DNA of 64,000 nt from Tachypleus tridentatus (taxonomy: Eukaryota; Arthropoda; Merostomata; Xiphosura; Limulidae), in contig NC_134830.1 of NCBI RefSeq assembly GCF_004210375.1, positions 168,771,874 through 168,835,873 on the forward strand, in the 5' to 3' direction. Made by a program: the position numbers and the translations under genes. Of this stretch, positions 34,009 through 62,695 are shown piece by piece (within the stretch, counting starts at the first letter, position 1; each line of letters begins with the position of its first letter). The notes beneath the pieces are model-generated. The model was not told the DNA's origin and searched no databases. It worked only from the letters and a program-made list of their open reading frames with translations.

Positions 34009-34800
34009 ATGTCGAAGACACCCACAAGCTCTTCCACTGGCCCCTGGGAGACGGTCATGTTCACCGAAATGTACATGTCCATAGAACTGTCTAAGGAGAA
34101 TACCTCCGCTGACTCTGACCTCCAGCAGGAACAAAACTTAGTCCCAGTTGGAATCCAGGTGTTGATGTCCATCATGTATATAACGATATCCCTTGCTGCT
34201 GTTGGAGGTAATGGGATCGTGTGTTACATTGTGATGTCTGATCCTCGAATGAGAACTGTGACCAACTTTTTCATCGTTAACCTTGCGGTTGGAGATGTTT
34301 TGATGGCTGTTCTGTGCATTCCCTTCACCTTCGTGGTTAATCTCATCTTGGGACGTTGGCCATTTGGTGGGGTCTTTTGTGTGATTTTCACTTACGCTCA
34401 GGCTGTTTCTGTATTCGCTAGTGCCTACACACTAATAGCGATCAGTGTGGACAGGTACATCGCCATCATCAAGCCACTAAGGCCACGAATGACCAGGCTA
34501 CAGGCTAAGCTACTTATATTTGCCGTTTGGTTGGTGGCGCTGCTGACACCACTCCCCACTGCTATCGTTTCGAAACTAGTTCCACAGAACAACACCGACC
34601 ATTACCTCTGCACCGAAGTTTGGAGCACCCCAATTCAAAGATATTACTACAGCATGGCTCTCATGACATTACAATACTTTCTACCATTGATTGTACTCAT
34701 CTTTACTTATACCAGGATAGCTATTGTTGTGTGGGGAAAACAAACACCGGGGGAAGCCGAAGACAACCGAGATCACCGATTGGCTGCATCAAAACGAAAG
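34009..34800 (+). CDS. RYa-R: RYamide receptor, exon 1 (residues 1-264)
   Basis: Encodes the N-terminus and membrane segments 1-5 of a class A neuropeptide GPCR that should couple extracellular RYamide peptides to G proteins at the plasma membrane. Visible: one N-glycosylation site (N31), TM1 with GN (67-68), TM2 NLAVGD (91-96), TM3 with C124 and DRY (148-150), TM4 with W174, C201 in loop 2 to pair with C124, TM5 with P226, and PGEAEDNRD (247-255) followed by SKRK. That last stretch and the exon boundary after SKRK match the arthropod RYamide receptor family (Drosophila CG5811) from my knowledge. The exon ends at a consensus donor (AAAG|GTAAGT), phase 0. The start is fixed by an in-frame TGA at 33976. 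NPF or leucokinin receptors are less likely alternatives. Confidence 0.93.
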
Positions 34801-35164
34801 GTAAGTATTTCAGTAAATGTAAGCACCAATCACTTTGATTATTCCATTCTTTAATTTCGGTATCAATTCGGTGAGCTGGAGATTTTTCAATAATTTACTA
34901 GTTTCAATGAATTGCATTATGAAATTGTGTGTGGGAATACTTGTAAACTTATAAAATGTAACACAAGTGCAGTTTAAAAGTGAGTTCATAGAAATAATAA
35001 CAGATAATTGATTTATACTTTAATATTAATCTTAAGGTATTATGAGTGGTTAATTTAAAATTAAACCCGGTGACAGAAATAATATATTTTATTTGTTGAA
35101 TACAAGAAACTTCTCAAACGTACAATTTTATTAGGGTTCATATATTTTGTCCATTTTTGTGTGT

Positions 35165-35420
35165 TTTTTAAAACTTCCCACAAAGCTAAACGAGGGTTAT
35201 CTGCGCTATCCGTTTCTAATTTAGCAGTGTAAGACTAGAGGGACGGCAGCTAGTCATCACCACCCACCTCCAACTCTTGGATTACTCTTTTACCACCGAA
35301 TAGTGGGATTAACTGCAACTTTATAAAGCCCCCACGGTTGAAAGGGGAAGCGAAAGGAATTCGAACCTGCGATCGTCAGGTTCCGAGTCGAGCGCCTTAA
35401 CCACCTGACCATGCTGAGCC
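35165..35420 (-). mobile_element. Thr-SINE copy in the receptor intron
   Basis: Near full length (AAACTTCCCACAAAGC to CCTGACCATGCTGAGCC), quite diverged, with part of the B-box-proximal region deleted (GGGGAAGCGAAAGGAATTCG). Confidence 0.8.
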
Positions 35421-35720
35421 ATACATTCTGTCTAACGGCGTTAAATTTCAGGGCAGATGCTGAATAATTGTGTAAGGAAAGTTACAGTTTGTTGTATTCT
35501 TATGAACAAGGTTTCTCTCTTTTTGTGTGTTGTTATGAAATATTAGCTTTCATTTTAGAATTACGTATATTTTAAGCGGATATACACATTACCTCGTCTC
35601 ACAAATGAAGTTAACTTTAATTAGTCCAAAAACAAACAATTACATCTAAGTATAAAGAAAACAGATATATTCGTGAAAAGTTAAATCAAATAATTAAATA
35701 GAACGCTAAAGTTATGCCTG

Positions 35721-35842
35721 GTTTGTTTGTTTGTTTTCTTTTAGCAAAGCCACAAAGGCTATCTGCTCAGCCCACCGAGGGTAATCGAACCCCTGATTTT
35801 AGCGTTGTAAATCGGGAGACATACCGCTGTACTAGCGGGGGG
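35721..35842 (-). mobile_element. SINE-B copy in the receptor intron
   Basis: From TTAGCAAAGCCACAAAGG to CCGCTGTACTAGCGGGGG. This copy has a GTTTGTTTGTTTG tail like that of the Thr-SINE rather than an AC run, hinting at shared priming or a chimeric tail. Confidence 0.75.
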
Positions 35843-36693
35843 TATTTTGTGCCTGGTAATACACGTTCACGCTTTATATTACCACTTTTAATAAATGACC
35901 ACATGAAAATGGATGTTTGTTGTCTATAGGCGCAGTTATATTCTACAGTGTTAAAATACGTCTAACTAGCCCTATAATGACGTATTAACAGTATCTAATT
36001 TATTTGCTCATTGTATTTTGGTGAAACAATTGAAATAAAAGCATCGTTGTACTTTAAATGTACACATATAACAGTTAAGTAATAGCATGTAGCCTTAAAA
36101 ATATCAAACATCACAATTTTGAAATAAAATCCAAACCTTTCGTCTATGAAGAGCATTTACAATGAAGATAACAGAAAAACGTTTTTGCTACTTTAGAAGT
36201 GTGCTATAAAACAAAAGTTTAGTCTTTCGTCAGTTTTGGCATCTTCAACATATATATATATATCACATTAAATTGTAATGACGTTAATAAACAATTTAAA
36301 TACAAATTAAAAGTAAGTTTGAGCTTTGAAAAACTTTGATAAGCCTGTGATAAATGTTCTAACATTGTAATTACGTCATCCAAATGCAGTTGTATTATCT
36401 TGTTTTTTGCGAAACTTTAAAATTATTTTTATATAAAATATTAGATGATTCATTAACTGAAAAATGCCCAAAGTTTGCTTTTTCCTTTGCAATATACATA
36501 TTCTCATGTATCTAATTCCAAATTTAACTTTAAACTGAATCTAGTAGGCGATCAAAAAACTAAATTTGAAGTTTCTTTCTTGGGTTTTAGGCCTAACTTA
36601 TGTGAAAAATACCGTTCAACAATTTTTATTATTGTTTCATACAAACATTTCTAACAACACGATCATTAATTGTTAATTTACATTTCACAATAA

Positions 36694-36812
36694 CTGGCAT
36701 GGGCTAGTGGTTAGGGCGTATAATTAACATGCTCACCTCAGCAACCCTGAGAGTAATATTATGTGATTAGCAATCCTACCTTTCGTTGTTAAAAGGGTAC
36801 TCCAAAAGTTAG
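36694..36812 (+). mobile_element. degenerate Thr-SINE 5' half
   Basis: GGCATGGGCTAGTGGTTAGG resembles the head, and CCTACCTTTCGTTGTTAAAAGGG the body; the B-box region is replaced. An old copy. Confidence 0.45.
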
Positions 36813-36910
36813 TTGTGCTCTAGACTTTTGATCTGCAAAAAAATTACTTTAACAACAATATTTCTGTAATAATGGTCACTTCGAGTTTCGATGGATTTCA
36901 ATCCACTAGT

Positions 36911-37144
36911 GGCCGACATTGCATGGTCGTCGCGGGTTCGAATCCCCGTCACCCCAAACATGTTCGCATTTTCATCCGTGAGATGTTATATTGTGAAAGT
37001 CAATCTCACTATTCGTTGGTAAAAATAAGTAGCCCATGAATTGGCGGTGGGTGGAGATGATTAATTTTCCTTTCCTCTAGTCTTTCACTGCTAAAATAGG
37101 CATAGCAGACAGCCCTCGTGTAGCTTTGTGCGAAATTCAAAAAC
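36911..37144 (+). mobile_element. Thr-SINE copy lacking the A-box region
   Basis: Starts in GGTCGTCGCGGGTTCGAATC with a clean B-box and reads through to GTGCGAAATTCAAAAACC. The anticodon side is replaced by unrelated bases. Confidence 0.8.
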
Positions 37145-37879
37145 CAAATAGTCTAGCTTATAAATATTTGTAACAATTTTCCACAGTTGTGTTGTTTTAT
37201 CATCACCATCAGTTCAATTTCTTCGAAAAGTTCCAACTTTGTTACAATACACATTTTTATTCTCAAAATGTTTTATATCAATATTTTCTATCAGGTTTAT
37301 TACAGTTTGTCAGCTTTCCGTTAGTTGTTTCAGAAATTAATAATGTAGCAAACAAATAATAATAAAACTTCGTATTAAGTAATTTATTTGGGCTATCAAC
37401 TCGTTTTGGGGCCTAAATCTTACGAAATGTACCGTTGAACGATTTTTTATTATTGTTTCGTATAAACCTTTCTAGCACTTTAATAATTTCATTCTTTGAT
37501 TTCAGTATCAATTGAGCAAGCTTGGAGATTTCACAATAACACACTAATTTCAGGAACGAACGTCATGTCATTGCATTGTATTAAATAATAGTTTTAAATG
37601 CGAATGTACACTTTGTCTCGCTTTACCCCGGTTTTTAAAACGTGTTGGTAATACAAATAAATGATTGAGTACAAATACTGAGTTCTCACGTTACAAATCT
37701 GGAAAGTTACCTAATGATAAGACCTGTTACAGTAATTTCCAACCATATCTTTTCCTGTTTAAACAATATGTGTTCTGTTTAAATATGTTCTAAAAACAGA
37801 AATGCTAAACATCTGTACTTCATTGTTAGATAATTTTACTTATCTGTGTTTCAATATTCTCACCTTATCTCTTTTCCAG

Positions 37880-38254
37880 ATGGTCAAAATGATGATCACC
37901 TGTGTTACAGCTTTTACTCTCTGTTGGTTGCCCCTAAACACTTTACTTGTCGCCGGAGATCACGACCCAAGCATCTACACCCATCCACATATTGTTTACA
38001 TATGGTTTGCCTGCCACTGGCTAGCAATGAGTCATGCCTGTTGCAACCCTTTCATTTATTGCTGGATGAACTCCAAGTACAGAGCAGGGTTTCGTAAAGT
38101 CTTCTACCTGCTCTGTTGCAGGCTCCTACAACAGCATTCGGAAAATCCCCTTCACTCCATTGTTGCTACTCCGAGTTACAGGACCTCTGGTGGGCAGAAT
38201 TTTTATTCCATTAAAAGATTTTCTAGAACACCACCAAAGAAAGTGAATGTCTAG
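37880..38254 (+). CDS. RYa-R: RYamide receptor, exon 2 (residues 265-388, stop)
   Basis: Joins exon 1 in phase 0 so that SKRK runs into MVKMM. It carries TM6 with the CWLP toggle (279-282), the HDPS loop, TM7 with WFACHWLAMSHACCNPFIY (306-324) including the NPxxY motif, helix 8 (RAGFRK, 332-337), a likely palmitoylated CC (343-344) and a short Ser/Thr-rich tail. HWLAMSH..NP is characteristic of RYamide and leucokinin receptors; the third loop in exon 1 decides for RYamide. Total length 388 is normal for the family. Start codons just upstream of the acceptor (37802) are intronic. Confidence 0.93.
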   Translation: MVKMMITCVTAFTLCWLPLNTLLVAGDHDPSIYTHPHIVYIWFACHWLAMSHACCNPFIYCWMNSKYRAGFRKVFYLLCCRLLQQHSENPLHSIVATPSYRTSGGQNFYSIKRFSRTPPKKVNV

Positions 38255-44235: not shown

Positions 44236-44584
44236 ATGACCAAGATGGTGTTCATTGTAGGTTTCAGTCTTTGCCGTTTGCTGGCTGCTCTTTAACATTC
44301 TAACAGTGATGGGAGACCAGGACCCTACTCTCTGGAACCTCAGAAACATGGAATACATCTGGTTTGTTTGCCACTGGTTGGTCATCAACCTCATTTCCTA
44401 TAATTCTCTCACATGCTGGTGGATGAGTCCTAGGTTTCGAACAGGGTTTCGACAAATTTATCTTCGCTTCCTATGTTTTAGAACATATGGAGAAACCAAT
44501 CGTCTGAAGCGGGACAACGATTCCAGCTCGTTTACTCATGAAATTAACCTGCGTCTAACCCACAATTTTCGACTACAAGTATAA
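44236..44584 (+). pseudogene. diverged duplicate of the RYamide receptor last exon
   Basis: A TATATTTTCTATTAG acceptor (ending 44235) is followed by MTKMVFIVGF. One extra base at about 44266 then shifts the frame to VFAVCWLLFN, GDQDP, MEYIWFVCHWLV and MSPRFRTGFRQI, aligning residue by residue with receptor exon 2 up to helix 8. NPFIY has become NSLTC, and SHACCN has become NLISYN. The frameshift plus loss of the TM7 activation motif argue for a pseudogene. No copy of exon 1 was found between 38254 and here, so it is either a duplicated exon or the tail of a decayed tandem gene. An alternative last exon is unlikely because of the frameshift. Confidence 0.8.
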
Positions 44585-44890
44585 AAAATAGCATCAGAAC
44601 AAGCAACGTTTCCAAAGAAAAATAACACATAAACGTTACATTCCTTACTCAGAAGCCTGGACTAACTCCTGTCATTTGTAACATAATTAGAAACCTTTTT
44701 GCCTCAAATTCCAATACGCAGAATGTTTGTAATGTAATTGAAAATTCTTGGGATCTGATTTTCAACTAATACTTAATTAGTTCGTTTTGTTTTTTTTAAT
44801 TAGGTTTACACTAAATAATACTACTAGCATATTAAATTCAAGTCTGAGAAACTTACCACAACACATCGTTCTAATTACATGAACTCAATG

Positions 44891-44962
44891 ATTTGTTTGT
44901 TTGCTTTTAAATTTCTCGCAAAGCTACACGAGGGCTATCTTCTCCAGCTGTTCCTAATTTAG
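44891..44962 (-). mobile_element. outer Thr-SINE, 3' part (split by nested copy)
   Basis: TTAAATTTCTCGCAAAGC to CTAATTTAGCACTG; continues at 45232 after the nested copy. Confidence 0.85.
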
Positions 44963-44968
44963 CACTGT

Positions 44969-45225
44969 TTTTTTGTCTTTGTTTTAATTTCGCGCAAAGC
45001 TACTCGAGGGCTATCTGCGCTAGCGGTCCCTAATTTAGCAATGTAAGGCTAGAGGGAAGGCAGCTAGTCATCACCACCCACCGCCAACTCTTGGGCTACA
45101 CTTTTACCAACGAATAGTGGGATTAACCGTCACATTATAACGTCCCCACGGCTGAACGGGCGAGCATGTTTGGTGCGACCGGGATTCGAACCCGCGTCCC
45201 TCGGATTACGAGTCGAACGCCTTAA
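44969..45225 (-). mobile_element. nested Thr-SINE inserted into another Thr-SINE
   Basis: A young-looking body that ends at GAACGCCTTAA without the last ~20 bases of the tRNA head. CACTGT flanks it at 44963-44968 and 45226-45231, which is the target-site duplication within the outer copy. Confidence 0.88.
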
Positions 45226-45231
45226 CACTGT

Positions 45232-45436
45232 GTGAGACTAGACGGAAAGTAGCTGGTCATCACCACCCACCGCCAACACTTACGTTTCTCTTTAACCAAC
45301 AAAAAGTGGGATTTACCGTTCACATTATAACGCCTCCGCGGCTGAAAGGACGAGTATGTTTGAGGTGACGAGGATTCGAGACCGCGATCCTCAGATTACG
45401 AGTCGAACGCTCTAGCCACCTAGCCAAGCTGGGCCA
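45232..45436 (-). mobile_element. outer Thr-SINE, promoter part
   Basis: GTGAGACTAGACGGAAAGTAGC to CTAGCCAAGCTGGGCC. It is more diverged than the nested copy, as expected for the older host element. Confidence 0.85.
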
Positions 45437-55028: not shown

Positions 55029-55034
55029 TTTATT
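55029..55034 (-). terminator. possible polyadenylation signal of the Spatzle-like gene
   Basis: AATAAA on the minus strand about 15 bases after the stop codon. Unusually close, so a later signal (for example near 54612) may be the one used. Confidence 0.25.
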
Positions 55035-55048
55035 CATGGAAATTGTTT

Positions 55049-55292
55049 TTAAACAATCCCGCTAGAGGGCTCTCCAGAAGTCTGATGAATTGTTACAAAC
55101 TTTCTTCTATACTCTGGCGATACAGTAACATAACACGTGCAGCAAGAAGGAAAACGGAAATTTTCTTTATAAGGTTCCCTGTCTTCAGGCTTTATAGCTA
55201 AAAGGGTCTTGAAAGCATACCGTTGTCGACAAAAACTTCGGTACCCTAACGGGAGGTTGTCGCTGACGTACCTGCACGATCCCCCGTCGTCT
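55049..55292 (-). CDS. spz: Spatzle-like Toll ligand, last exon (cystine knot, C-terminal half)
   Basis: After a TTTTTCCCTTAATTAG acceptor, one base completes a codon (CA+A, Gln) and 80 codons follow to a TAA... stop at 55051-55049. It carries SCRYVSDNLPLGYRSFCRQR and, later, FRFPSCCTCYV: five cysteines (positions 6, 21, 50, 51, 53 of this exon part) in the spacing of the Spatzle cystine knot, including the hallmark FPSCC.C. With two cysteines in the preceding exon this makes the canonical seven. A 25-residue basic/polar tail follows. Secreted, dimeric Toll-receptor ligand by family knowledge. The plus-strand frame over the same bases is a shadow. Confidence 0.9.
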
Positions 55293-55649
55293 CTAATTAA
55301 GGGAAAAACAAATCTCATTAAAGAACCAAGAGTGAAGCACTAAAAGAAACAGAAATATTAATTAGTGAGCATTTTGTTGACACGTGACGTCACGAAAATG
55401 CACGTCAGTTCCAACTTCACTTCCTAATGGCTTCCAGAAAACACTGTCACTTATTACTTTATTTGTAATCGTTACTTCAGTCGATTAGTTTTCTTGTTGC
55501 TTATTAAATATTCGTGTTTGTTCAGGCTATATTTATCTCTCGTCGTTTATAACTTCTTATTGTTAAATCCCATGTTCTCCTTTAGGTTTCAATGAATTCA
55601 CATCATTTGTAGAGAATGTTTATTGTTAAATGTTTATTAGGACCCCAAC

Positions 55650-55800
55650 TGCATTATTCAGAACAAACCTATACTTTATAGAACCAACAAAAGCCTGTGA
55701 AATATATGGTGGTAGTTTTCTTATCTTAACAACTTCCTCTATAGTAACACCATGGAAAGTAGACTAACAGTTTCTTAATATTACCATCATGCAAGACAAC
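55650..55800 (+). repeat. dispersed repeat, copy 2 of 2
   Basis: TTCAGAACAAACCTATACTTTATAGAACCAAC and following bases match the copy at 7243, in the same orientation. Boundaries are uncertain. Confidence 0.5.
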
Positions 55801-55954
55801 TGTATCAAGCATCATTATTTATGCTAATTGCTTAAGGTAATATTATGTGCTCCTAAACTCTCTTTAAATAGGATAATTTCATAAAATATACTAAAACTGT
55901 GCTGTAAGGTTGGCAGTGAAAAATCAGTAATAATTCTGCTTCTGTAGCTTCCCT

Positions 55955-56635
55955 TTGTTATTGTTTTTTTTTTTGTACTGGTGGGCCCTCATACTGCTAC
56001 TTCCTAGTCCTACTTTTAACTTAGCCTACTTTTTTCTGTGTATCATGTTTTTATTCTGGTGGACCCTCATACTGCTACTTCCTAGTCCTACTTTTAACTT
56101 ATCCTACTTTTTTTCTGTGTTCATGTTTTTGTACTGGTGGGCCCTCATACTGCTACTTCCTAGTCCTACTTTTAACTTATCCTACTTTTTTCTATGTGTT
56201 ATGTTTTTATTCCGGTGGACCCTCATACTGCTACTTCCTAGTCTTACTTTTAACTTATCCTACTTTTTTCTATGTGTTATGTTTTTGTTCTGGTGGACCC
56301 TCATACTGCTACTTCCTAGTCCAACTTTTAACTTATCCTACTTTTTTCTATGTGTTATGTTTTTATTCTGGTGGACCCTCATACTGCTACTTCCTAGTCC
56401 TACTTTTAACTTATCCTACTTTTTTCTATGTGTCATGTTTTTGTACTGGTGGGCCCTCATACTGCTACTTCCTAGTCCTACTTTTAACTTAGCCTACTTT
56501 TTTCTATGTGTTATGTTTTTGTTCTCGTGGACCCTCATACTGCTACTTCCTAGTCTTACTTTTAACTTAGCCTACTTTTTTCTATGTGTCATGTTTTTGT
56601 ACTGGTGGGCTCTCATGTTGCTACTTCCCAGATGA
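55955..56635. repeat. 78-bp minisatellite with a 226-residue hydrophobic open frame
   Basis: Nearly nine units containing GGTGGACCCTCATACTGCTA and CTTTTAACTTATCCTACTTT. The unit is 26 codons, so the plus strand stays open and repeats MFLFWWTLILLLPSPTFNL then a YFFLC run; each unit looks like one membrane-spanning segment. It lies in an intron of, and antisense to, the Spatzle-like gene. Without a promoter, a start context or homology I regard it as a satellite whose frame is kept by unit length, but it is worth testing. Confidence 0.85.
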
Positions 56636-57811
56636 ATGAGTAGACATTTGTTTCTAATAGTGGGGATAGAAATTTCCTTGACCGAGGAATCAGAAAAAGC
56701 TCCTCTCCCCCAGCGACTCAGTGATAAATCTGAGAGAGGACTTCTAATGCTAATAACTTGGTTGGGTGCCTGTGGTAAACATAGCATAAACTGGGTAGCT
56801 TTATGCTTAGGAACGTCATCTGTTCGAGTTGGGTATTTATCTGATTTCATTGTTTTATACGTCATGTCTTTAATGGTTACTCAATAAAGAAAGACGCCCG
56901 TTTAAGTTAGATGATTATGTTTGTTTGTTTTTTTCATTTTATAACGTTATATTTTATTTTAATATGCAGATGTACTTCGTAATAAATTTTCAGTTATTAA
57001 CATTAATTCCAGATCTTAGTGATTTCCGTGACTCATTGTATCTTACGATATTTTGCCTGTAAAGCTTCTTAGAATTTTTTCTGGTTTTTGATAACTTTCC
57101 ACACTGTGTCCCGGAGGGTTTCTACACAGCGTTTAAATGTACAAACGCGAAAAATATTTTTAAATCTGCATGTTTGTAGGAAGAGGGGTCGTACTTCCTG
57201 AAATACTAATTCTCATTGTACAAAGTTGAAATATTATACCCTAGACTCTGTATATGTCAGCCTAGAAACTAAACTTCGTTTCAAGGGTTTTAATTTGACC
57301 TTCATTTAAACGTGTGCGCGCACTAGATATTTAGATACATCTGAACACTTAAAGATCAGTGTCAATATATTTCCATTTTTTCTTCTACGTAATATAGCTA
57401 AATGTTACAAAATAGGTCAATTTCCTTTCCTTGAAAGGAACATATCTTTATAAGAGTAACAAATTTCTGTGCACAGTCAGTTTCTCCTTTCAAGAGAATC
57501 CAAAATTCATCTCTCCTTTGGTGAATTGAACTTATAACATAATGTACACTGTATGTATAAACATCGATTACCGAGAAAAAATAGAGGTGTATACATTCTG
57601 AGCAGTGTTTCCTTTAGATGTGACCGGTTTTTTTTTTCTCGAAAAATTGAGGTCTTACTGAAGATAAAGTAATCAGCGTTTATACGATAAAGAGGGTCAA
57701 TTTGAAGCCAAAAATAGATTTGTGAGGTAAGTGTTGTTTTCACTTCACAAAACTCGTATGACTTTGAAAGCGCTTAAACTGGGGATTTGCCTTTTTTTTT
57801 TTTGGTGGTGT

Positions 57812-58088
57812 TTAGTTTGGTTTGTTTTTAATTTCGCGCAAAGCTACTCGAGAGCTATCTGCGCTAGCCGTCCCTAATTTAGCAGTGTAAGACTAGAGAG
57901 AAGGCAACTAGTCATCACCACCCACCGCCAACTCTTGGACTACTCTTGCACCAACGAATAGTGGGATTGACCGTAAAATTATAACACCCCCACGGCTGAA
58001 AGGGCAAGCATGTATGGTGTAACGGGGAATCAAACCCGTGACCCTCAGATTACGAGTCGAATGCCCTAACCACCTGGCCATGCCGGGC
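57812..58088 (-). mobile_element. Thr-SINE copy, full length
   Basis: GTTTGTTTTTAATTTCGCGC to GGCCATGCCGGGC; close to consensus. Sits in the Spatzle-like intron. Confidence 0.9.
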
Positions 58089-58232
58089 ATGTCTGTTGAA
58101 TTATTGATATAATAATTGTAAGCTATAGCGTATAATACCATTACTATAGTTGTCATTTTTACATTCTATTAAATGGTATCTTACTGTGTAATTGAATTTC
58201 AGTATAATTTGCTATTATTTCCCCCATAGTCT

Positions 58233-58495
58233 TGGCCTTGCAATCCGAGGGTCGCGGGTTTGAATTCCTGTCGCGCCAAACATGCTTGCCCTTTCAGCCG
58301 TGGGGGCGTTATAACGTGACGATCAATCCCACTATTCGTTGGTAAAAGAGTAGCCCAAGTGTTGGCGGTGGGTGGTGATGTGTAGCTGCCTTCCCTCTAG
58401 CCTTACGCTGCTAAATTAGGGACTGCTAGCGCAGATAACCCTCGAGTAGCTTTGCGCAAAATTAAAAAAAACAAACGAACAAACAAAACAAACCA
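58233..58495 (+). mobile_element. Thr-SINE copy, 5'-truncated
   Basis: Starts near GCAATCCGAGGGTCGCGGG, almost the same truncation point as the copy at 38565. Body close to consensus; tail an (AAAC)n-like run. Confidence 0.88.
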
Positions 58496-58685
58496 ACAAG
58501 TTTTTTTATATATAAAATTAATTATTTTTAGTGTTTTGTAAACGATATTAAACCTAGAAGCGGAGAAATCGAAGAAAGCTAATCTGGTTGTGCTGTAATG
58601 TTTTCGACATTGATTAAATAGATAAAAACATAGATCGTAGTAGTACTTATACAGTTTTAATTATAATGCTACTTAGTCGACTCAC

Positions 58686-58919
58686 TGGCATGTTTCTGCA
58701 GTCACCACTTGCTCGTAATGAATGTTGTTCACAACATATACCCATTCTTTTGCACTCGTCTTCCCTGCTTTAGGCCTAAATGTTCTAGTCTGAGATTGGC
58801 ACAATGGAGTCTCCGACAAGTCGCCAATAGGATAGGTTGACCTGCCTGTCAGTCCTGTTGAAAATACCACTTTAAAGGCATCTTTCGATAACTTACTCAT
58901 TGAATTCATTATTTCTGCG
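58686..58919 (-). CDS. spz: Spatzle-like Toll ligand, middle exon (activation site and cystine-knot N-terminal half)
   Basis: Acceptor CTTTTTTGTTACAG precedes; the first base completes AA+C (Asn), then 77 codons and two more bases before a GTGAGT donor, i.e. phase 2 on both sides. Residues AEIMNSMSKLSKDAFKVVF form the helical end of the prodomain, LTGRS is a plausible activation-cleavage site, and SETPLCQSQTR...EWVYVVNNIHYEQVVTAETC supplies the first two knot cysteines and the W..VVN...Y.Q.V..E.C pattern typical of Spatzle. The apparent Q-stop at the end is intronic read-through. Confidence 0.9.
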
Positions 58920-59137
58920 CTGTAACAAAAAAGAAATTAATTAACAAGTTAAAGGTCATGAACCATACATCTTTGAAGCGTTTGTATCAACGACTGTCAA
59001 AAACAACAACAACAACTGTAGAATAGAAACAGAAATATCTAACCACTTTAAGTTATCTAAGAGATCCTGAATACTCTATAAAATGCGTTTCACTAAAATT
59101 TGTGTATTTTTTCTATGGTATAACTAAAATGTTGTTT

Positions 59138-59253
59138 TTTCAATTAACCAGAAAGCTACATTATAGACTATCTGTGCTCTGCCCAACACGGATATCGAAA
59201 TCCTGTTTTAGCGTTGTAAGTCCGCAGATATACCGCTGTGCCGCTGGGAGCTA
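59138..59253 (-). mobile_element. SINE-C copy, best preserved
   Basis: AACCAGAAAGCTACATTATAGACTATCTGTGCTCTGCCCAACACGG, B-box side ATATCGAAATCCTG, TTTTAGCGTTGTAAGTCCGC and CCGCTGTGCCGCTGGGAGC. It shows the family's hybrid layout: a SINE-B-like promoter and a Thr-SINE-like 3' end. Confidence 0.65.
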
Positions 59254-59504
59254 ATTAATATGATAGCAGTGTTCTGCAAAACGAAAGGTTTCTGAAATTA
59301 GAACCTATATAAGGCATGTTTCATGAAATGATTTCGTAATTTTCACGAGATACGAAAAGCTTTCACGTTATCAAATTTCATTTCAGAAACGGTTTAATAA
59401 GTTAACAAACATTATGTGTACATTGCTTAAAATCAATGCTCACCAAACCTTATTTATACCAAAACTTACTAATGAATGAGTAATGGTGGCGGTCACTTCT
59501 TTTA

Positions 59505-59779
59505 GGCCCGGCATAGCCAGGTAGATAAAATGCTGGACTCGTAACCTGAGAGTCGCGGGTTCGAATCCCCGTCGCACAAAACATGATTGCCCTTTCAACC
59601 GTGGGTACGTTATAATGTGACGGTCAATCCCACTATCCGTTGGTAAAAGAGTAGTTTAAGAGTTAGTGGTAGGTTGTGGTGACTAGCTACCTTCCCTCTA
59701 GTCTTACACTGCTAAATTAGGGACAGTTAGCGCAGATAGCTCTCGTGTAGCGTTGCGCGTAATCCAATAACAAATAGAT
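59505..59779 (+). mobile_element. Thr-SINE copy with 7-bp target-site duplication
   Basis: Full length. ACTTCTT flanks at 59495-59501 and 59780-59786; a few bases (TTA) lie between the left repeat and the head. Confidence 0.85.
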
Positions 59780-60560
59780 ACTTCTTATGGTGATACTTTA
59801 TAGATCAATTGAAAATTATAGTGATATATATGGAGAAAATTTGTGGAACAGTTAAAGAAACAGTTCGAATATCACTGCCATTACTGAGTCAAAATTCATT
59901 CTATTCCTCAGAAAGTAAATAATGAACTCTTCAATCTTTTAGCAATATCGAATTCAAATTCAAAGGCGGACATAAAAATACCATGTAACATCTGGCATTG
60001 GAGTCATCATGATGTATCGTTACAACAGTTGTAACGCTTGGAAGAACCTTACGTTCGTCTTTCTATTGAACATGTCTTTATTTAAGCACGTTCAGTTAAA
60101 TTTCAAAACTTTTTTACAATTGTTCTGCACGCCATTGGATGGCGTCCTTCTAAATATAATGTATAAAGATTTAGCGCTAAATGGTATCTTACACAAAGGT
60201 TATGTATTGCAACGCTTATTCTAAAAAGCATATACTTGGTTGACCATATTTCTGTGCCTTACCTTCTTGAAATATATTAATACTCAATTCGAAGGATGAT
60301 ACAAAAAGTTGTATAAGTTAGTATGAGTAGAAAGGTATAGTTGGAATGACTTGACGAACAATGAAGCTGGCTAGTTTAATGAAATCCACAGACATTCTTG
60401 TAATGATAAAGATCGTGTACTTTTATTTATTCATTTCTGCTTTTTTCCTCTATTTTCCATGATCATTTGTTTCTTTTCTCAACATTTGTCAAACATAAAG
60501 GTCTCGCAGATAACTGTATTGCAAGTATATGTGGAGTCATTCTTTCTGGTTGAAAGCATG

Positions 60561-60682
60561 TATGTGTATGCGTTTTCTCATAGCAAAGCCACGTCAGACT
60601 ACCTACCGAGTCCACTGAAGACAATCGAAACCCTGATTTTAGCGTTGTAAATCTGCAGACTTACCGCTGTACCAGCGAGGGA
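60561..60682 (-). mobile_element. SINE-B copy
   Basis: GTATGTGTATGCGTTTTCTCATAGCAAAGCC to CCGCTGTACCAGCGAGGG; B-box slightly altered (CAATCGAAACCC). Confidence 0.75.
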
Positions 60683-62315
60683 CAAAAGTATATAAAAGAT
60701 ATAGATTTTGTTAATGTATATAGTTTTATCTACCAGTATGCATACTAAACAGTAAATAACGTTCCAGTATGAATGATTTCATTATCATTATATTTAACGC
60801 TACTGCCTTCCTTACAGAATAAACACTAAAACAAGTATGTATAGATTAAACAATAATTAATTATCATTTTTCTATGGGGATTAACTTCGCAGGAATACAA
60901 CCAAGATGGCGATGAATATATAAAATATTCTCTCGTGAAAATGTTTCTGAAGTAATCTAGGATGTATAGAAAACTAATAATAGTATTAAATATGCCAAAC
61001 TATTATTAACTATATTAAACTATAAAGTTTTAACATCAGTTTGTTTGCCTTTCAACTTTGAATTGTTAGAGAACTGAAACTGTTGCTGAGTCATGATCAA
61101 AAAGCTCAGAGACGATACTTAACTCGATCTTCTATAGTTTCGGGTTTAGTGAATAAATAAACTATTCGCATCAGAAAAAGCTAAAAAAAAAACCAAAGTG
61201 TTCTCTTAAAAGTCTTGAGTCAGATACTCAGTCTTGTTTGAATCGAAGCTGTTGTTGTTTTCTCCTTTCAAATTCTAATTTTAATAGTTTTATTTATTTG
61301 ATTTACTAAAACTTATTTTGATACTTCAAGAGATGTTTACAAACAAACAGTGCTGTAGTAACATTGACATGGCCACATTGGTTAAATCTGTTCTGTCCGA
61401 AGGTACTTTGTACAAGAAATACTTTAATGTGTTCTATTCTGTACTTCTAAGCCTAAATGGCGAATTCGATAATGTTGTCTTCTTCATTTATTAGTCCTTC
61501 TTTCAACGTATTACTGAATGTAAAAAATAAACGAAACGAGTATACATTTACAGTACATGTAGTAAAAATAACGTTGAATAAAGTACACATTATGATATAG
61601 AATAAAACTGAGGATAAGTTGTTAAACTATTTTTTTAATATTCAATGTTTACTAGAGTGGAGGTGTCATCATGTCATGATGATAATGGAAAGTTTGAGTA
61701 CTAAGTAGAAAACGAAAACAATACAAAAAAGAGAATTTATCAGTTCAGTATTTTTAGTGACTTATAGAATGAGAGTTATTACGTATATTTTCTTGCAAGC
61801 TAATTAATAGTGCGTCCGTTTACGTATCTGATCGATTAGAAAAGAAATTCCAAGAGTAAGTTTACATGTAAGTTAGGCCTACAAGTGACTGTAACCAGTG
61901 TTAACCACTCTTGAAGAAATAAATGAATTCGTTATCGTGACGTGGTTTGCACTTGGATAATGTTTACTAAATAATCCAAAAGCGACCTCTCAAGGATAAA
62001 ACATGTTACAAAAAACATTGTGTAAAGAATATCACTAATGTTATTTTAACAAGCAACATAATTCCCAACCTAATTTCCTATAAATAAAATATTCTGCGAA
62101 TTGATAAGATAATTTACAAAGTTTTACTAACACACTGACAATCATTTTTTCACGTTTGTCGGTTGTACCCATAAAACTGTTTTGAAAACCTTTTCCAAAG
62201 ATTCACATTTTATGATTTTTTTTAATGCATAAACTATTCAACCTAAATACAACACTAATTATATTATTTGTTCCTTTAGTAAAAACACTATTCTGACTTT
62301 TCGTATTTTAATTAC

Positions 62316-62542
62316 TTGGGATAATCGGGTACTTCTTCACAAAAATTGCTTGTGTTGTTTCGTGCACATTCGGGTATTCCAAACTTATCGACAGGTGGCG
62401 CAAGAGGTTGGACTTCATTTTCTCGAAAGATGACGGCAGCTGAATCGAATTCAGGCATTATTGGTTCGCCTTTAGACTTTTCCCTCTCACTGTTTGGTGA
62501 AGGAAAACATACGCCATCTTCTATGCAAAAGTTGGAGAAAAC
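62316..62542 (-). CDS. spz: Spatzle-like Toll ligand, prodomain exon
   Basis: Open from a TTGCATTTCAG acceptor (ending 62543) for 75 codons plus two bases to a CCAA|GTAATT donor. It contains CIEDGVCFPSPNSE near the start and ends GIPECARNNTSNFCEEVPDYP. The C....T.FCE.V..YP signature just before the knot domain is characteristic of Spatzle-family prodomains. Exit phase 2 matches the next exon exactly. Two other acceptors are possible: CAG ending 62582 (same frame, longer) and CAG ending 62490 (exon from 62489). The last would be the only one in phase with the candidate signal-peptide exon. Confidence 0.8.
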
Positions 62543-62695
62543 CTGAAATGCAAAATCTATGTTGCAAAATATGCAAATAGTCTGAAACAATATTAGAATA
62601 CCATATTTAAAGTGATAAAACTGACTTTATTTCAGATTGAAAGTGCAAAAAATTCGAGAATGGACGCTGGAAACTTTTGGTAATAAAATACTTAC

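Follow-up and report, generated by a model that had tools for sequence, protein, structure and literature searches.

The minus strand of this window (the whole 64,000-nucleotide stretch of Tachypleus tridentatus contig NC_134830.1, contig C6 in our numbering) raises the question whether three short open frames between positions 62542 and 55049 form one gene for a Spätzle-type Toll ligand, as an earlier note on this DNA had proposed, and what such a gene would tell about coagulogen, the clotting protein of horseshoe crabs, which is of related fold. In insects Spätzle activates the immune receptor Toll. The three exons (62542-62316, 58919-58686 and 55292-55049) do join into one open frame of 234 codons that ends with TAA at 55051-55049. 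All boundaries are consensus sites (a slash marks a splice boundary or a predicted cut): acceptor ttgcatttcag/GTTTTC and donor CCCAA/gtaatt for the first exon, acceptor ttttgttacag/CGCAG and donor TGCCA/gtgagt for the middle one, and acceptor cccttaattag/AGACG for the last. Both internal introns are phase 2, as the note had stated, and the two apparent stops that it had called false, YPK-stop and CQ-stop, both arise from donor sequence.

The prodomain exon (62316..62542) has a phase 0 acceptor and a phase 2 donor, encodes residues 1-75 plus two nucleotides of codon 76, and carries CARNNTSNFCEEVPDYP. After intron B (58920..62315, phase 2), the middle exon (58686..58919) encodes a helix, the activation linker and the first half of the cystine knot, matches Pfam family PF16077, and ends in a phase 2 donor that lies within the codon following a knot Cys. 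Intron C (55293..58685, phase 2) thus falls behind the first Cys of a C-x6-C spacing, and the last exon (55049..55292) supplies the second knot half (GSC...SFC...PSCCTC) and a short tail; a possible poly(A) signal, AATAAA, can be read at 55029..55034, 14 bases past the stop. The start of the prodomain exon is backed by the closest paralogue, on contig C7, in which Q/VFTSYC aligns with Q/VFSNFC of the window. An alternative start at 62581 (CAG/ACT) would fit the exon length of the paralogue on C12; it was rejected because the C7 sequence Q/VFTSYC stands at the acceptor homologous to 62542, upstream of which no likeness is seen by eye.

The joined protein (P0001) matches the Spaetzle profile PF16077 with E 6.2e-27 and 94.5 bits against a cut-off of 27, over profile positions 2-96 of 96; this is the profile comparison that the note had put forward as a check, and with it the proposed Spätzle identity is borne out at full length. 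The best match in the PDB is Drosophila Spätzle (3e07, 2.5e-15; 4bv4, 5.9e-15), and Aedes Spätzle is matched as well (7b1c, 1.7e-9; 7b1b, 1.8e-9); matches to the low-density lipoprotein receptor, at E 0.014 or weaker, were set aside as chance likeness of cysteine-rich sequence. All seven knot cysteines of the window protein, including the seventh in the CC.C end, pair with the seven of 3e07 in the alignment, so that the claimed complete seven-cysteine knot is present. In a Pfam search with E up to 1 PF16077 was the only family found and Coagulin (PF02035) was not matched; the window locus is likewise not among the 19 PF02035 matches in the genome. Nucleotide differences between the window gene and its C7 paralogue number 17, 18 and 43 at first, second and third codon positions (89 codons), as expected under protein-level selection, and differences among all four genes of the group described below also concentrate at third positions. 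By its sequence, then, the locus holds a real, selected, intact-looking and spliced-looking gene for a Spätzle pro-protein; the earlier observation as a whole is confirmed, and its interpretation supported.

The genome that contains the window (2.167 Gb in 205 contigs, for which counts from profile searches are lower bounds) yielded 73 PF16077 matches among 112 candidates, 72 of which were read. The C-terminal half of the knot is held by 48 loci, equivalent to 40 clusters at 95% identity, although identical pairs on C7 and C3 counted among the 48 may be assembly duplicates. The literature gives 1 to 7 Spätzle genes per species in one table of eight species (PMC4833078) and three rounds of genome duplication in horseshoe crabs (PMC7210998, PMC7815833); the high locus count fits such a history. 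At 89-94 Mb on C7 four identical pairs of Spätzle last exons are seen, perhaps an assembly duplicate. When the whole genome was searched with P0001, 106 candidates yielded 35 matches (E up to 1); behind the gene's own exons, the best of these are two copies of a paralogue on C7 and the paralogues on C3 and C12. These form one group with the window gene (tree support 92/94; pairwise knot identity 45-66%), and their prodomain exons match that of the window. The two C7 copies (L091 at 89.34 Mb and L092 at 91.12 Mb) are near-identical, and a one-base difference in a run of A shifts the prodomain frame of the 89.34 Mb copy. The tree also places the Spz proteins of Drosophila and Aedes near this group, with modest support (87/74), and Spz1-type is therefore the most fitting label for the window gene. 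Taken alone it is an ordinary member of a known family, and it is the comparison with coagulogen that is the interesting part.

That comparison begins with intron positions. The prodomain signature pointed out earlier, C..(F/Y)C...YP, is followed after two bases by a phase 2 donor in 10/10 Spätzle prodomain exons checked, so that intron B belongs to a position class shared by all of them. In four paralogues outside the window group (L024, L026 and two in L031) the hydrophobic signal exon begins right after AG in phase 0, and by our reading of the sequence the window, C7, C3 and C12 exons begin in phase 0 as well. In 23/23 joined Spätzle genes a phase 2 knot intron interrupts the codon that immediately follows a knot Cys; the scan looked for a donor consisting of a Cys codon, two nucleotides and GT[A/G], with acceptors picked in phase 2, and since the script asked for such a site the count means that one is always available at the knot edge and is not a blind prediction. 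Six further loci, the single-exon class, have no knot intron. A conserved knot intron has been reported among Spätzle genes, absent from fly Spz4 and Spz6 (PMC2586362); the window gene agrees in that an intron is present inside the knot.

The note had made its remark on coagulogen conditional on the host being a horseshoe crab, and a coagulogen gene is indeed found in the same genome. Among 28 candidates there are 19 PF02035 matches, including a four-piece gene at C11:9.02 Mb whose translated exons equal PDB entry 1aoc, which we take to be Tachypleus tridentatus coagulogen, at every read residue but one (I for T, near an exon edge); eleven 1aoc residues, probably those of a small exon, were unread in the gene and set as X. 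Up to eight further coagulogen-type genes were seen, at C7:19.2-20.5 Mb (a cluster), C7:29.07 Mb and C11:42.93-42.96 Mb, and a count of 6 has been published for this species (PMC7011531). The coagulogen gene has a phase 0 acceptor at the signal peptide (ctag/AAATTG), a phase 2 intron that precedes the stretch KIEKAVEAVAQESGVSGR/G, and a phase 2 intron in the codon after a Cys (TGT CG/GTAAGA) with the same C-x6-C spacing as at TGC CA/GTGAGT of the window gene; residues rebuilt across both phase 2 introns agree with 1aoc. The first of these phase 2 introns, ahead of helix and cleavage site, is common to coagulogen and the window gene (intron B), and the post-cysteine phase 2 donor recurs in 9/9 exons read of coagulogen and its paralogues, in a scan that took a motif with a terminal Cys as its anchor.

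The relation also extends to the residues themselves. When a profile of 8 coagulogen-type knots (4/8 rows of which hhalign kept after its redundancy filter) was aligned with one of 25 two-exon Spätzle knots, the match had 97.5% probability and a score of 61.0, and the split codons shared one column; in the Spätzle profile two rows carry X at the split codon, and C6_166, truncated by knot trimming, was kept there and dropped from the tree. One hundred shuffles of the Spätzle columns with Cys columns fixed gave a best score of 18.1, whereas the single-exon class (4/6 loci used in profiles and tree) reached only 0.3% against the coagulogen profile. The homology of coagulogen and Spätzle is thus one of sequence and not of fold only, and most simply coagulogen would belong with the intron-bearing kind of Spätzle. 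The remark in the note, that coagulogen is Spätzle-like in fold, can therefore be carried further, given that the two genes share their intron phases, an intron position that can be aligned exactly and the cleavage-site pattern.

In the window protein the prodomain lies upstream of a conserved G-x-x-G-[RK] motif, which here forms the predicted activation site GLTGR/STY (58838..58843, minus strand; cut between Arg102 and Ser103 of P0001). The linkers of the group read GLTGR/S in the window, GIKGK/T on C7, GIQGR/S on C3 and GVLGR/T on C12, and the motif is present in 4/4 of them and in 0/27 linkers of other Spätzle genes, 11/27 of these controls being under 30 residues, some linkers extending in frame beyond the upstream border of the exon and others being shortened by the exon edge. 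Coagulogen carries G-x-x-G-R twice, at residues 14-18 (GVLGR/T) and 42-46 (GVSGR/G), which we take to be its two cleavage sites. Boc-Leu-Gly-Arg is a chromogenic substrate of the clotting enzyme (PMC9960723), and GVLGR/T of the C12 paralogue compares with it. From the group motif, the coagulogen sites and this substrate we infer that a protease of the clotting-enzyme type may activate the window Spätzle. The matching exon layout together with the likely cut site suggests that clotting and Toll signalling derive from one ancestral gene.

We consider it probable that the locus encodes a selected Spz1-type pro-cytokine that is cut after Arg102 to give a Toll-activating dimer, and that coagulogen is a paralogue of the same family with a clotting role. 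The gene would be expressed and, following established Spätzle biology, its product would be secreted as a pro-protein and cut after Arg102 (GLTGR/STY), presumably by a clip-domain protease that is trypsin-like and of the same kind as the clotting enzyme; the freed seven-cysteine knot would dimerise through its seventh (CC.C) cysteine, which links the fly Spätzle dimer, and would bind and activate a Toll receptor. Coagulogen may have kept the phase 0 signal-peptide, phase 2 pre-helix and phase 2 post-cysteine introns and the G-x-x-G-R pattern while gaining its role in the clot. As expected if Toll receptors are present, 17 TIR matches were found in the genome, of which 13 lie in frames 397-1282 codons long. 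Coagulin itself is said to interact with a Toll-like receptor and to activate NF-kappaB signalling (PMC9777084, citing another paper).

Several observations weigh against parts of this reading. The gene model was read from the sequence alone, and when some 39 kb upstream were scanned with a filter for the start-codon exon, five candidates came up, with donor phases 2, 1, 2, 1 and 2, none in phase 0; since the filter demands a hydrophobic stretch within the first exon, which family members possibly lack, that absence is uninformative. Between Spätzle and coagulogen prodomain exons no similarity was detected in the profile comparison (0.3%). The post-cysteine intron is family-wide, and thus supports coagulogen as a Spätzle relative and not as a descendant of the window subgroup. 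Against the coagulogen profile the window's group reaches 84.8% and is outscored by subgroups F (95.3), G (93.7), C (89.9), A2 (87.3) and E (85.6), with C10_63 (74.1), two-exon D (4.7) and the single-exon class (0.3) below it, although with 1 to 6 rows per subgroup profile these values are not strictly comparable. In the tree coagulogen stands, without a firm placement, beside the intronless class (71/40, a join flagged by the program as long-branch) and not next to the window subgroup. At the cut itself, Lys replaces Arg in GIKGK of the C7 paralogue, and the shortness of the control linkers weakens the motif contrast.

A rival proposal, which we rate only a little below an even prospect, is that the likeness of the activation site to that of coagulogen is convergence or chance, this Spätzle being cut by clip proteases other than the clotting enzyme. 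The motif appears in 313/20000 (1.6%) of shuffled group linkers, a frequency at which a single origin is not very improbable, the 0/27 contrast is less telling than it looks, and the residues at P3 and P2 vary among the four paralogues; on the other hand the motif stands in all four at the corresponding place, after the phase 2 intron and the helix and before the knot. The boldest form of our interpretation, in which coagulogen arose from a Spätzle gene by duplication and re-purposing and this subgroup is likewise cut at G-x-x-G-R by the endotoxin-triggered clotting enzyme, so that one protease would switch on both the clot and the Toll pathway, is held only tentatively, as a rather doubtful possibility. 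A developmental or neurotrophic role in place of an immune one, as for Drosophila DNT1, DNT2 and Spz, with some other trypsin-like protease cutting GxxGR, also seems unlikely to us. Neuronal survival roles are reported for Drosophila Spz, DNT1/Spz2 and DNT2/Spz5 (PMC2586362), and 48 loci leave room for subfunctions; yet the tree joins the window group with the Spz proteins of Drosophila and Aedes (at the 87/74 support given above), and a dibasic pair is found in 0/4 group linkers compared to 8/27 others, both being features with which a developmental role is still compatible. That the gene is an unexpressed or decaying duplicate left by the genome duplications is very improbable: duplicates are many, and the prodomain frame of the C7 copy at 89.34 Mb is shifted relative to that at 91.12 Mb, but in the window all three exons are open, splice sites are consensus and codon differences lie at third positions.

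The fold relation of coagulogen, Spätzle and nerve growth factor and the shared ancestry of the proteases are already published (PMC2586362, PMC3634835), and it has been proposed that the clotting and Toll cascades arose from a common source (PMC3634835). Sequence trees had not settled the coagulogen-Spätzle relation, and the closest relative of coagulogen was said to be fly Spz4, at 29% identity, a gene for which no knot intron is reported (PMC2586362). The shared intron position, shared phases and profile match are further evidence for common descent, and they make it less likely that coagulogen arose from an intronless Spätzle type such as fly Spz4. The GxxGR site in addition offers a biochemical test with a single substrate, namely whether the endotoxin cascade also yields a Toll ligand. 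The string 'tzle' is absent from the main text of three horseshoe crab genome papers (PMC7011531, PMC7210998, PMC7815833), as is 'spz' from the latter two, and among literature titles and abstract beginnings, where accented words are unsearchable, neither a horseshoe crab Spätzle gene nor the shared introns were found. This speaks only weakly for novelty, and such genes are likely to be annotated in databases.

Elsewhere in the window, a gene for a neuropeptide-type G-protein-coupled receptor with at least two exons lies at 34009-38254 on the plus strand (7tm_1, 1.5e-49 and 2.6e-9; best PDB match neuromedin-K receptor, 3.6e-38). An open frame at 44306-44584 (plus strand) resembles by eye transmembrane segments TM6-TM7 of that upstream receptor, has no Pfam match and is perhaps a second, degenerate receptor copy. 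Inside the last Spätzle intron, at 55970-56628, a 78-bp minisatellite of 8.4 copies creates a false plus-strand frame of 226 residues without a Pfam match. Dispersed repeat copies at 57800-58100, 58250-58480, 59500-59750 and 44886-45410, in the introns and elsewhere, show tRNA-like box motifs by eye and have the appearance of short interspersed elements; ARAGORN found no tRNA.

Among known systems, the window gene is closest to its paralogues at C7:89.34 and about 91.12-91.13 Mb, C3:11.94 Mb and C12:108.2 Mb, which have the same three-exon layout and G-x-x-G-[RK] site; they differ in the Lys at the predicted cut on C7 and in a prodomain exon on C3 placed some 12.5 kb ahead of the knot exon. 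Drosophila Spätzle (3e07, 4bv4) shares the seven aligned cysteines with the CC.C end, whereas its aligned stretch begins VGGSDE, which we take to be its mature N-terminus, where the window gene has GLTGR/STY. In the Aedes chains (7b1b, 7b1c) a six-residue gap stands opposite LPLGYR, in the interval between two cysteines. Coagulogen (1aoc; C11:9.02 Mb) differs in that the first half of its knot region holds one or more additional introns, by extra cysteines, by two cleavage sites and by its clot-forming role, and has in common with the window gene the intron phases 0/2/2, the C-x6-C spacing with a split codon after its first Cys, the CC.C end and the G-x-x-G-R sites.

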